From: a bacterium
GTDB taxonomy: Bacteria; Armatimonadota; Chthonomonadetes; Chthonomonadales; CAJBBX01
Direction of reading: 5' to 3'
Assembly (NCBI GenBank): GCA_009885735.1
Contig: VFKD01000707.1
Coordinates: 1-34,704, forward strand
DNA length: 34,704 nt
Position 1 is the first letter of the stretch. Each line of letters opens with the position of its first letter. This document shows, piece by piece, positions 1-32,414 of the stretch. Below the pieces are notes generated by a model. It did not search any database, was not told the DNA's origin, and saw only the letters and a list, made by a program, of their open reading frames with translations. The translations under genes were made by a program, and so were the position numbers.

Positions 1-1489
1 CGATTGCAGGCCGGCTTCGGTAGTTTGTCCGAAGCAGGATGCGGCTGCCCGAAGGATAGTCTCGCTCGAACTCAGAGACATTCGCCGGCGAGGCGCCCCG
101 AAACCGGTAGATTGCCTGCGCGGCATCGCCCACGACCCAGAGGCCCGATCCATCTCCAGACAGGGCTTTGAGCATTCGAGCGCTTGCGCGATTGATGTCT
201 TGATATTCATCCACTAGGATGTGAGGCCACTCGGCCTGAACTCTGCATGCCACATCCGGCACGGTCTCCAGCATCTCCGCCGTTCGCATGATGAGGTCGG
301 CGAGCTCCAGCGAGCCTGTGTCTCGCAGCAAGTTATCCCACTCCCCATAGAACCGCGCGAGTTCCACTGCCTTTGGGTCTGAGGTTACCTCGTCGGTCAT
401 GGAGGCCGCGGCCAGAGCCATGAATTCGCCGGGACCAATCATCTCGTCCTTCGCGGCCGAGACTGCGCCGAGCAGGTCCGCGAGCCCGAGCGCCGGATTG
501 TGAGGATGAAGGTAGGCATCCAGAGAGAATCGGTCGAGGTGGTCCAGAATCATCTCGATAGAGAGTGCGCGGTCGAGCAGCCTTGGGCGCAGCGGGAGAC
601 CAATTGAGCTCCCGAAACGGCGGAGCAAGTCAAGTCCAAAGGCGTGAAATGTGCCCGTCCAAATGCGGTTTGCCTCTCTTGGTGCAAGAACCGCAAGCCT
701 GTCGCGCAGTTCGTTCGCCGCCTTGTTCGAGTACGTGAGCGCCAATATTCTCTCGGGAGGCGTCCCTGCTTTGATCAGCACGCCAATTCGTGCAATCAGC
801 GTCCGCGTTTTGCCGGTTCCAGGGCCTGCCTCCACCAGCAGGGGTCCCTTCTTGAAGCGAGCGGCGGCGTCTTGATCCTCATCCAAGCTCGCGGCTTCCA
901 GCGGCAACTTGGGAGGCTTTGCAGCCTGCACAGCATCGTCGACGGCGTTCGATGCGCCCAACGCCTCGGTGAGCTGGGAGAGGACGACGGACTCCGATAC
1001 GCCAAGCCGAGACGCAATCTCACCGCAGCCAAGCCCGTCGCACAGCATCTTGCCCACGATACCCAGAGGCGCAAGTAACTCCGCAGCGAATCCATTAGCC
1101 TCTCCTTCCCGGCGTTGGGCGGGGCTGTAGCCCACTATGCGCTCGACGGCCTCGTGGCCGTCGTTGTAGAGGCGAGCAGTAGTCGGACTCGCCTCGTCAT
1201 CTGAGTGAAGGTGCAAGTGCGCCAGCTCATGCGCCAGGAGATAGGCCCGCGTGGCCGCGGGCATGTCGCTTCGTCGGAAGACGGAGCGCGTCGCCCTATC
1301 GAGCACCCCGTCGGCGCCGGCCAGAAGAGGGTCACGCCTGTCGAGCGCGAATTCAGAGATGTCGCTTAGCCGAAGCCCGGCAGCAGCGACGTCTGCCGCC
1401 ATTGGCAGGTCTGGGTCCGTCGCGAGCGTCGCGAGTGCGCGCATTCGAAGCGACCGTGCCGCGCGCCGGACCTCCGGGGCATTTGGCAC
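1..1489 (-). CDS. ImmA/IrrE-type zinc metallopeptidase domain fused to UvrD/Rep superfamily I helicase (3' end truncated by window edge)
   Basis: Hand translation of the reverse complement from GTG at 1489 stays open to position 1. It contains AYLLAHELAHLHLHSDDE (HExxH, 1217-1231) and REGEANGFAAELLAPLG (ImmA/IrrE signature), then LLVEAGPGTGKTRTLIARIG (Walker A, about 806-826), ILALTYSNKAANELRDRL, WPHILVDEYQDINRAS (Walker B, about 191-225), GDAAQAIYRFRGASP and LLRTNYRSRPAI. Confidence 0.9.
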   Translation of the reverse strand, partial: MPNAPEVRRAARSLRMRALATLATDPDLPMAADVAAAGLRLSDISEFALDRRDPLLAGADGVLDRATRSVFRRSDMPAATRAYLLAHELAHLHLHSDDEASPTTARLYNDGHEAVERIVGYSPAQRREGEANGFAAELLAPLGIVGKMLCDGLGCGEIASRLGVSESVVLSQLTEALGASNAVDDAVQAAKPPKLPLEAASLDEDQDAAARFKKGPLLVEAGPGTGKTRTLIARIGVLIKAGTPPERILALTYSNKAANELRDRLAVLAPREANRIWTGTFHAFGLDLLRRFGSSIGLPLRPRLLDRALSIEMILDHLDRFSLDAYLHPHNPALGLADLLGAVSAAKDEMIGPGEFMALAAASMTDEVTSDPKAVELARFYGEWDNLLRDTGSLELADLIMRTAEMLETVPDVACRVQAEWPHILVDEYQDINRASARMLKALSGDGSGLWVVGDAAQAIYRFRGASPANVSEFERDYPSGSRILLRTNYRSRPAI

Positions 1490-1490
1490 G

Positions 1491-2153
1491 TTACTTCCTC
1501 TCCAGAGTATCCGAGCCTGTGCAGGCAATCAGCCAGAACTCCCGCTGCTCCAAGGTAAGGTGCTCAGCCATTCGAATACTGTCCGCAAATGAGGCTTGCT
1601 CCGGAACCTGGGGCGCACTCCGCGCTTTGAAGTCCGCTGACAAGACAAGCGTGGGCGGAAGGGCTAGATAGTCCGAGATACTCTGAACCGTAGACTTGAC
1701 CGCACTGGCTAGGCGTTCGATCAGCAATGCAGGAATCGTGGACGCCAAGAACAGCCGTTGGCTCAGCTTTGCAATCTCCGGCAGTCCGAGATTCAGCCTA
1801 GATGCCAGATCCGAAGCGCTGAGGCCGGCATGGTGGGCCATGCCCAGAAGGTCCGCGTGAAACGGCGACGCGCTCTCGGCAACCATCATATGTCCAGACT
1901 TCGGCTCCGCATAGGCAAGCTGAGCCGCAGCCTGTTTCCGGTAGTGGTTTCCTGCATACTGCAGGTACCGCTTGGTGTCCGCGTCTTCCGCAAACTCTTC
2001 TTGCGCCGGCCCGTTTACCACCAGGCTTAGCGCCGCGTCCCGCAGTTCAGCGGCGAACTGCGGGTATCTCGCAGACCATTCGGCCACCGAGTCGCGAGTT
2101 GGGCTCGGGTACGAGTCCTGAAATGCTGCAAGTACTCTATTTAGATCGTCCAT
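1491..2153 (-). CDS. XRE-like HTH protein associated with ImmA/IrrE peptidase
   Basis: 220-aa ORF. GLSASDLASRLNLGLPEIAKLSQRLFLASTIPALLIERLASAVKSTVQSISDYLALPP has an XRE-like helix-turn-helix pattern. Stop lies 1 nt from the start of the downstream peptidase-helicase gene. Confidence 0.65.
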   Translation of the reverse strand: MDDLNRVLAAFQDSYPSPTRDSVAEWSARYPQFAAELRDAALSLVVNGPAQEEFAEDADTKRYLQYAGNHYRKQAAAQLAYAEPKSGHMMVAESASPFHADLLGMAHHAGLSASDLASRLNLGLPEIAKLSQRLFLASTIPALLIERLASAVKSTVQSISDYLALPPTLVLSADFKARSAPQVPEQASFADSIRMAEHLTLEQREFWLIACTGSDTLERK

Positions 2154-2162
2154 GATAATCCT

Positions 2163-2915
2163 CTATTCCAGGCTGCTGCAGGTTCTCTGCAGGTAGGCAA
2201 CGGCTGTACTCAAATAGTTGCGAACGGTTCTATCCGTTACGCCCATCTTGTGGGCAATCTCGGTGTGAGTGAGCCCAAACAGGTTCACTCCAACAAATGC
2301 CATTCTCGCCGCTGCGGGCATGCCGGCGAGCGCCTGCCTTATGGTCAGGCTGTCCAGAATCGCCGCGGACTCGCTGGGTGCGTTGCCGGCGCCCGCCAGG
2401 TCGTCAACTCGCTCCAGAGGAATCGACCGGCGCCGCTCCGCCGCTGCGTGCTGCATAACCGAGTGGACGAGCCTATCCAGCGCGAAGAAGAATCGAACCT
2501 CCCAGAACGACTGCTTCTCGCCCGTATCTTGCCAGACTTCAATACAGCGCACGACAATCTCCTGCTCCATCTCTTGCAGCGCGTCCGCGCCCATCCAAGA
2601 CACGGGCTGGAGCAGCTTGCGGATGCGCCCTGTACTCCGCAGGATGAGCTGCTTACAGTAGCGCTTCTCCTGATTCTTGTCATCCGACCAGACACACTCG
2701 CGCAGCAAATAGACCAGGCTTTCCATGCGCGGAGTGCCGGACATTCGGAAGTCCGTGCTCTTAATTGCTTCCGCTAGCGCCGCCGGCGCAAGTGCCAAAA
2801 GACGCACGATGTCCGCCTCCACTTCGGCTTCACGAGCGTAGTCTGCTCGTGCAATCGGCCGCAGGAACTCCGTGCCGCCGCCGCTCACCGCCCGACGCCT
2901 TGCTCGCTCACCCAT
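2163..2915 (-). CDS. RNA polymerase sigma-70-like factor
   Basis: 250 aa. Region-4-like HTH at C-terminus (FGLTHTEIAHKMGVTDRTVRNYLSTAVAYLQ). Region-2-like helical segment ALQEMEQEIVVRCIEVWQDTGEKQSFWEVRFFFALDRLVHSV. First gene of the operon. Confidence 0.7.
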   Translation of the reverse strand: MGERARRRAVSGGGTEFLRPIARADYAREAEVEADIVRLLALAPAALAEAIKSTDFRMSGTPRMESLVYLLRECVWSDDKNQEKRYCKQLILRSTGRIRKLLQPVSWMGADALQEMEQEIVVRCIEVWQDTGEKQSFWEVRFFFALDRLVHSVMQHAAAERRRSIPLERVDDLAGAGNAPSESAAILDSLTIRQALAGMPAAARMAFVGVNLFGLTHTEIAHKMGVTDRTVRNYLSTAVAYLQRTCSSLE

Positions 2916-3057
2916 ACACTCTTTTCTGCGCCGCGAATCCGGAAACAGTTCTCAAAAATGGTTTGCCGGAGGCACACCAAGCGGTGGTGCAGCAAAATGT
3001 TTTGACAAAGGCCTGCATCTGCTTTCCGCATTTGCGTCTCTCCAACGAGTATGAGAC

Positions 3058-3426
3058 TTGAATACATCGCCATTACGCCGCCGAGCCGCGTTTGCCCTCT
3101 TCGGCGCTCTACAGAGTATGGCACTTGGGGAAATTGAAATGCATGACGTACACGAGGCTGTCACGTTCGCCGGCATGATGGATGAGTTTGATCAGGATCT
3201 GGCCGATATCGAGTGCCTGCTGGATAGAGGGGAGACTGGAGCCGCCTGCCGAGCCTTCGGCCGAGTCGCTGCGTGGTATGGCGAGTGGGAGCCGCTGGTT
3301 GATGCCTACAGCGTGAAGGGCGCACTGCGCGACAGAATGGACCGGCTGCAGGCTAAGCTTCCGCTGCGAGTTCGGGCAGGCCGCAAGCCTATTACAAGGG
3401 TCGCGGCTGAGCGTGCTGCAGCGTAG
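3058..3426 (+). CDS. hypothetical protein
   Basis: 122-aa ORF divergent from the sigma-factor operon. The true start may be 3118 or 3139 (MHDVHEAVTFAGMMDEFDQDL). No recognised domain. Confidence 0.4.
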   Translation: MNTSPLRRRAAFALFGALQSMALGEIEMHDVHEAVTFAGMMDEFDQDLADIECLLDRGETGAACRAFGRVAAWYGEWEPLVDAYSVKGALRDRMDRLQAKLPLRVRAGRKPITRVAAERAAA

Positions 3427-31274: not shown

Positions 31275-32414
31275 ATGCCGCTCATAGACTCCTTCAATCG
31301 AACTATCGACTACCTTCGAGTAAGCGTGACGGATCGCTGCAACTTCCGGTGCATCTACTGCATGCCGGAGGAGGGCGCCGCGATCGCGCCGAAGAAGGAC
31401 CTGCTCACCTACGAGGAGATCGTTCGCGTGGTGCGGGTCGCCGCTGATTGCGGGGTAACCAAGGTTCGTATTACAGGCGGCGAACCGCTGGTGCGCAAGG
31501 ATATCGTCGAGCTCATTTCGCAGATTGGGTCCATCGACGGTATTCGCGACCTCTCTATGACCACCAACGGCTTCCTGCTCGATCAGGTGGCGGAAAAACT
31601 GGCCCAGGGCGGGCTGCATCGCATCAACATCAGCCTTGATACGCTACGCCCAGAGCGGTTCGCGCCAATCGCACGCCGGGGCGAACTTGCGTCTGTTCTG
31701 GCAGGCATCGACGCGGCAAGGGCAGCCGGCCTGACTCCCATTAAGCTCAACGTGGTTGCCATGCGCGGCGTGAATGATGACGAAGTGCTCGACTTTTGCC
31801 GCCTCACTTTGAACGAGGACGTGGACGTTCGGTTCATCGAGCTGATGCCGATAAGCTGGTCCACCGGCGACGACAGCATGCGCGATTTCTATGCGCTCTC
31901 CGGCAAGTCGGACTCATCGCGGGTCTCTACGCTCACGTTGTATCCCAACCGCACAGAGGCATCGTTCAATCGCCTCATGGATACGGGCGGAGTGATGGCG
32001 ACGGACCGCATGCTGGATGCGTCCGCGATGCGCAAGCTCTTTATTTCTGCGAGTGAGATGCGGCAGGGAATTGAGCGCGAGTTTGGACCGATGCAGGCGG
32101 CTGAAGTGGTGACGAACGGTCCAGCCAAGAGTTTTCGCATCGATGGAGCCATTGGCACCGTTGGCTTCATCAGCCAGATATCCAGCGACATCTGCGCGAA
32201 CTGCAACCGCCTACGACTAACCGCAGACGGCCACTTGCGCCCGTGCCTCATGGCGGATGGCGAGGTGGACCTCCGTGGGCCTCTGCGTTCCGGCGCGACG
32301 GACCGTGACATCGCCGATCTGTTTGATCTCACGGTACTGCACAAGCCGTTTGAGCACAGGCTTGAGGACGGCCATGCCCCTCGCAGCCGACACATGAGCC
32401 AGCTCGGCGGCTAA
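31275..32414 (+). CDS. moaA: GTP 3',8-cyclase MoaA
   Basis: DRCNFRCIYCMPEEG; VRITGGEPLVRKDI; second cluster CANCNRLRLTADGHLRPCL; C-terminal MSQLGG (conserved GG tail). Confidence 0.95.
   Translation: MPLIDSFNRTIDYLRVSVTDRCNFRCIYCMPEEGAAIAPKKDLLTYEEIVRVVRVAADCGVTKVRITGGEPLVRKDIVELISQIGSIDGIRDLSMTTNGFLLDQVAEKLAQGGLHRINISLDTLRPERFAPIARRGELASVLAGIDAARAAGLTPIKLNVVAMRGVNDDEVLDFCRLTLNEDVDVRFIELMPISWSTGDDSMRDFYALSGKSDSSRVSTLTLYPNRTEASFNRLMDTGGVMATDRMLDASAMRKLFISASEMRQGIEREFGPMQAAEVVTNGPAKSFRIDGAIGTVGFISQISSDICANCNRLRLTADGHLRPCLMADGEVDLRGPLRSGATDRDIADLFDLTVLHKPFEHRLEDGHAPRSRHMSQLGG

Follow-up and report, generated by a model that had tools for sequence, protein, structure and literature searches.

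The window, which is the whole stretch of DNA that was analysed (34,704 nucleotides), opens with part of a gene that joins an M78 (IrrE/ImmA-type) zinc peptidase to a UvrD/Rep helicase. This fusion is the last gene of an operon, behind a sigma-like factor and then a 220-aa XRE-like protein (p220), a setting missed in the preliminary description. With a little more confidence than doubt, we propose that the three proteins form a three-part switch in which engagement of DNA by the helicase-protease would lead to cleavage of p220, release of the sigma factor and expression of repair and anti-phage genes. The architecture, the conserved active sites, the operon and its co-occurrence, and a two-box promoter with its positions were all computed.

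The single chain of M78 peptidase and UvrD/Rep helicase claimed in the preliminary description was confirmed. Positions 2-1489 of the minus strand form one uninterrupted frame with a GTG start at 1489, which contains both of the stretches that had been quoted for the two domains, and neither a stop nor a frameshift, named there as a refutation, lies between them. An in-frame TTG is located at 1528. Given that the window is an entire contig (G000:C140:1-34704) of a 741-contig genome, the frame runs off its left edge. The end of contig C312 is an exact 109-base copy of window positions 1-109, and the frame continues there to a stop (gene end at position 6014 of C312, locus L019), resulting in a full-length protein of 1094 aa with the order M78 peptidase, SF1 helicase and, at the C-terminus, a PD-(D/E)XK-like domain. 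Pfam matched the window part to Peptidase_M78 (E=1.5e-11, residues 66-173) and to UvrD-helicase (E=2.5e-59, residues 203-479). When the gene was extended left of position 1, as had been proposed, M78, UvrD-helicase and UvrD_C were all matched, and across 41 aligned fusions these were found in 41, 41 and 40 sequences, with PDDEXK_1 in 34. The minus-strand location and the C-terminus with UvrD_C and a PDDEXK_1-like domain are additions to what had been described. Counting of the architecture, also proposed there, gave 77 separate loci with an identical arrangement, which rules out an assembly chimera. Feature coordinates are provided in the table.

Table. Positions, strand and basis of the features identified in the window
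Feature	Position	Strand	Basis
N-terminal 496 aa of the fusion	1..1489	minus	GTG start 1489; rest of gene on C312 (L019)
Peptidase_M78 (IrrE/ImmA) domain	971..1297	minus	Pfam/HMM match
HExxH of the M78 domain	about 1217-1231	minus	Invariant columns H87 E88 H91
Candidate third zinc ligand, Glu128	about 1106-1108	minus	Invariant column E128
UvrD/Rep helicase N-terminal domain	53..883	minus	Pfam; coordinates derived from residue numbers
Walker A of the helicase	about 803-829	minus	Coordinates derived from residue numbers
Walker B (DEYQD) of the helicase	about 197-214	minus	Coordinates derived from residue numbers
p220, 220-aa XRE/HTH-like protein with N-terminal helical domain	1491..2153	minus	HTH matches of relatives; AlphaFold
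Sigma-70-family (ECF-like) factor	2163..2915	minus	Sigma70_r4_2; TIGR02937
Two-box promoter of the sigma operon, TTTCCGGATTCGCGGCGCAGAAAAGAGT	2918..2945	minus	Motif search
Divergent two-box promoter copy, TTTCCGCATTTGCGTCTCTCCAACGAGT	3023..3050	plus	Motif search
122-aa candidate ORF behind the divergent promoter copy	3058..3426	plus	ORF call

Downstream of the fusion on C312, three adjoining membrane-protein-like ORFs were observed (L019:3423-6013). At least two of them share a terminal motif, LLRPAS..DAPEQVLLRPVG..DETQLLRPAQPD, and a similar gene was found behind the fusion in one relative only (L027).

For p220, Pfam gave no match to the protein of the source genome on its own; among 37 relatives, HTH_31 was matched in 8 and HTH_25 in 6. 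The AlphaFold model (pLDDT 85) consists of a helical N-terminal region and an XRE HTH. Searching this model with Foldseek returned XRE proteins, DdrO and CapH among them, and every E-value exceeded 0.1; the fold alone is therefore supported. From its sequence and fold, p220 is predicted to be an XRE-like protein of the kind cut by M78 peptidases, and is the predicted substrate here. In the sigma-like factor, region 4 was clear (Sigma70_r4_2, E=1.4e-10) and region 2 was not recognised by Pfam; TIGR02937 matched residues 110-244 (E=1e-8) in an alignment that spans the weak region 2. The true start of this gene may be an internal GTG.

Linkage of the three genes was determined for 73 fusions with enough upstream sequence. 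In 41 of these p220 was adjacent, and in 39 both p220 and the sigma gene were present. The 32 fusions that lack an adjacent p220, which include most of the Ktedonobacteria-like ones, count against the switch model. Within the order, p220 was present in 25 of 26 genomes with the fusion (the exception being a genome of 64% completeness), and the 5 genomes that lack the fusion all lack p220 as well (Fisher p=3.5e-5). In five genomes p220 is unlinked from the fusion, and the sigma gene and p220 are still neighbours there. This unlinked co-occurrence, together with the adjacency, is the strongest evidence that the sigma factor and p220 may be one unit with which the fusion would act.

The heptamer CTTTCCG was over-represented upstream of the sigma gene (12 of 43 loci; p about 1e-9, uncorrected for heptamer number). 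In genome matches of an extended form of this box, a second box (GAGTA) was found at a fixed distance, with 16 of 42 sites having [GC]AGT at offset 13 and no other offset being used by more than 3 (p about 3e-23, some sites being orthologous). The combined pattern, TTTCCGGWTT-N14-GAGT, is directional and not palindromic. Counted from the first T of TTTCCG, the G of GAGT lies 24 nt on, a distance on the usual scale of a -35/-10 promoter pair. It precedes the sigma gene in the source genome and in many relatives.

Genome-wide, the pattern was found at 22 sites in the source genome (the sigma gene's own and 21 others) versus 3 for a reversed control, and the corresponding counts were 15 to 0 in G003 and 11 to 0 in G025. 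Totals, calculated with kinship ignored, were 203 versus 30 in 27 genomes with the system and 20 versus 18 in 12 genomes without it. In four system-bearing genomes (G005, G006, G018 and G019) the motif was absent or unenriched, which counts against the switch model; promoter specificity has perhaps drifted in these few. When the region was scanned for generic sigma-70 promoters, the outcome was no better than chance. We infer that the operon's own sigma factor reads the two-box promoter. In G001 the two-box sites share an almost identical spacer (CCCAACCCCAAACGAGT), which could mean that they form a repeat family or that the regulon is unusually uniform.

The preliminary description had also proposed that the helicase could gate the protease and thereby couple DNA damage or invasion to transcriptional derepression. 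Such gating and coupling would agree with the conserved active sites, the XRE-like 220-aa neighbour and the promoter in front of repair and defence genes. Simple derepression as the output did not hold up as well: besides the XRE-like protein, a sigma-like factor is encoded in the operon and the two travel together, and therefore sigma activity is the likely output.

According to the most direct rival to the switch, p220 is a conventional DNA-bound XRE repressor of the operon, like DdrO and CapH, that the fusion cuts on damage, and the sigma factor, once expressed, merely amplifies the response without the contact of an anti-sigma factor. The XRE HTH fold of p220 would suit this role, and the known M78 substrates are DNA-bound repressors (PMC10904395). 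Against it, what is conserved upstream has the form of a directional two-box promoter and not of a palindromic operator, p220 adjoins the sigma gene also in genomes where it is separated from the fusion, and p220 has a conserved N-terminal helical domain besides its HTH. We consider this reading unlikely, although it keeps a real share of the probability; a damage-inducible regulon would be expected under both, and the difference lies in p220-sigma contact.

In the source genome, genes directly behind two-box sites encode an SMC-like ATPase (L390), an AAA ATPase of the candidate defence family HEC-01A (L391, E=6e-142), a DinD/BRO-like protein of PDC-S13 (L395, E=1e-112), two SNF2-PLD helicases (L397 and L406), a type II DNA methylase (L398) and two RhuM proteins (L399 and L402). 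A recognisable nucleic-acid or defence gene was present at 11 of the 22 sites, the sigma operon included; about half of the sites are thus without a recognisable gene function, which counts against the switch model. Targets in relatives include SSB, LigA, HsdR_N, SNase, ADP-ribosylglycohydrolase, ARPP-1 and Cas3 (one firm by PADLOC and one similar by eye). Ordinary genes such as PBP1A are also among them, and these likewise count against the model. Proteins were selected for PADLOC by their defence-like look, and therefore the matches describe these genes and do not test for enrichment. As a rough yardstick, ten window genes were scanned and gave one match, a MoaA-like radical SAM protein (31275-32414, plus strand). 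It matches models of prokaryotic viperins weakly (E=5e-16), and its Mob_synth_C domain assigns it to ordinary molybdenum cofactor synthesis.

Two protein types without a Pfam match were found behind two-box promoters both in the source genome and in G008 (L404:488-1117 with L419:291-962, and L403:379-2304 with L420:286-2007, each pair similar by eye), and these are candidate regulon members. The source genome also carries a second M78 gene, an XRE-M78 protein of 390 aa, in an apparent defence island on contig C678 (L031:1440-8406). The order there, with most gene names read from sequence, is an SNF2-like helicase, a two-box promoter, a MerR-like gene, XRE-M78, a short PIN-like gene and a DNA methylase. 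A near-copy of this promoter and MerR-like gene, again behind a two-box site, is located on contig C145 (L389).

Using the M78 region as query, the fusion was found as a single-copy gene in 12 of 12 genomes of the source family (Armatimonadota, Chthonomonadales), where it is a conserved chromosomal gene. An M78 profile search of the order located it in 26 of 31 genomes, the remaining weak match being a short unfused frame, and located it in other Armatimonadota outside the order as well. Among 399 genomes of Chloroflexota (the phylum of a Ktedonobacterales MAG), several dozen carry it. All three operon genes were present at two loci from the genomes of this search, labelled Chloroflexi and Proteobacteria; the latter is probably a mislabel, as that genome falls within the Chloroflexota search. 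Searching a viral collection gave relatives of the helicase region only, and a viral or mobile origin of the fusion was rejected on this basis.

This distribution bears on a second rival, in which the fusion is a defence effector: its helicase would recognise invading DNA, its protease would cut cellular targets so that growth stops, and the neighbouring genes would only control expression. In favour of an effector are the resemblance of the helicase region to PADLOC defence helicases, e.g. GajB, and the defence genes that also stand behind the two-box motif. The presence of one conserved copy in every genome of the family, not patchy or mobile, argues against it, as do the lack of a viral or mobile-element copy in the viral collection and the finding that p220 and the sigma factor co-occur with the fusion also in genomes where linkage is lost. 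Moreover, GajB and the other PADLOC models match the fusion in its helicase region only. This explanation is judged quite improbable, clearly more so than a DNA-bound repressor.

Both active sites of the fusion, M78 and helicase, are conserved in about 95-100% of 79 aligned fusions. The two HExxH histidines show no variation, the glutamate of this motif is kept in 75 of 79, and 77 of 79 have the candidate third-ligand glutamate. The core residues of the helicase (Walker A, Walker B and motifs IV-VI) vary little or not at all. Counted by locus, HExxH is kept in 73 of 77 fusions. None of the four fusions with a broken motif (L176, L186, L187 and L188) has an adjacent p220, a weak association (p=0.03); two of the four are close relatives. 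A Capsulimonas-like genome (G051) carries two copies of the fusion, one with an intact and one with a broken HExxH.

In the C-terminal domain, four cysteines in an AddB-type Fe-S arrangement are kept in 78 of 79 fusions, suggesting that the domain may hold an Fe-S cluster. The catalytic D-x-K of PD-(D/E)XK nucleases could not be recognised by eye in the 79-sequence alignment, and an active nuclease at the C-terminus was rejected on the loss of this motif, as judged by eye. The AlphaFold model of a homologue of 1149 aa (mean pLDDT 88, pTM 0.89) gave UvrD, PcrA, AddA, AdnB and RecB as its best structural matches. The M78 profile of the fusion matched IrrE (3dte) and CapP (7t5t), both modestly. 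A third rival, in which the fusion works as a helicase in DNA repair and its M78 domain, without protease function, is left as a structural relic or DNA-binding module, is highly improbable. In its favour, the overall fold matches UvrD, AdnB and AddA, and four fusions have lost HExxH. Against it, the histidines, the glutamate and the third ligand are near-invariant, the part that has decayed is the nuclease motif, which would be required in a helicase-nuclease for repair, and the HExxH losses coincide, weakly, with the lack of an adjacent p220.

Compared with IrrE/PprI-DdrO of Deinococcus, where ssDNA is the activator (PMC10904395), the system shares an HExxH M78 zinc peptidase, an XRE-type partner and a link to DNA damage. 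Unlike the Deinococcus protease, which has a GAF domain, the fusion ends in a helicase and a nuclease-like domain; no GAF match was found by Pfam among 41 fusion relatives, in which the helicase occupies that place. Its partner is also coupled to a sigma factor, with LexA present alongside. CapP-CapH of CBASS, which controls anti-phage genes in response to ssDNA (as reported in PMC10904395), likewise pairs an M78-type protease (the 7t5t match) with an HTH partner; CapP lacks a fused helicase, and control here is predicted to be genome-wide via the sigma factor and not of one adjacent defence operon. ImmA-ImmR of mobile elements is alike in that a peptidase adjoins an HTH regulator, whereas the fusion is chromosomal, conserved in its own family, seen in no mobile-element context, and accompanied by a fused helicase and a sigma factor.

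AddAB, AdnAB and RecB have the same succession of an SF1A helicase and a PD-(D/E)XK-like domain with the AddB-like four-cysteine set, and AdnB and AddA are among the best structural matches of the fusion homologue. They differ in that the D-x-K of the fusion is unrecognisable and an M78 peptidase is added at its N-terminus. ECF sigma factors controlled by regulated anti-sigma proteolysis share the region-4 domain, a promoter of the same form at the sigma gene itself and a co-encoded partner. Here the partner is XRE-like without sign of a membrane role, and the predicted release protease is the M78-helicase fusion.

For the favoured three-part switch, the following sequence of events is proposed. 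In resting cells, p220 would hold the sigma factor inactive, acting as an anti-sigma factor or, as we also infer, possibly as a repressor. The AddA/AdnB-like motor would engage DNA ends or ssDNA that arise from damage or phage entry, and this engagement is the presumed trigger that would render the M78 domain active and cause it to cut p220. The freed sigma factor would then read TTTCCGGWTT-N14-GAGT promoters, its own included, and DNA-repair and anti-phage genes would be switched on. The model is supported by precedent, since PprI/IrrE cuts DdrO better once it has bound ssDNA (PMC10904395), and CapP cuts CapH on ssDNA (as reported in the same paper).

A role as a replacement of LexA/SOS was rejected, because LexA is present in 30 of the 31 genomes of the order, including the source genome. 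No description of an M78-UvrD fusion was found in the open-access literature, and DdiA of Myxococcus, followed as a literature lead, has an architecture unrelated to the fusion. The system thus looks like an apparently undescribed way of sensing damaged or foreign DNA.

To our knowledge, how the many scattered bacterial defence systems are coordinated during infection is largely unknown. Given that the sensor, its partner, the sigma factor and the promoter sequence are predicted together, the regulon is directly testable. If the switch is true, ssDNA-activated M78 proteases would act not only on lone repressors but also within a switch that is driven by a motor and coupled to a sigma factor. 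We suggest tentatively, at somewhat below an even chance, that the Armatimonadota may possess a further response to DNA damage or invasion beside RecA-LexA and IrrE-DdrO, in which a translocating helicase-protease would sense DNA ends, cut an XRE-like anti-sigma factor and thereby release the sigma factor to switch on a genome-wide regulon of repair and anti-phage genes, with the same three-gene operon in part of the Chloroflexota.
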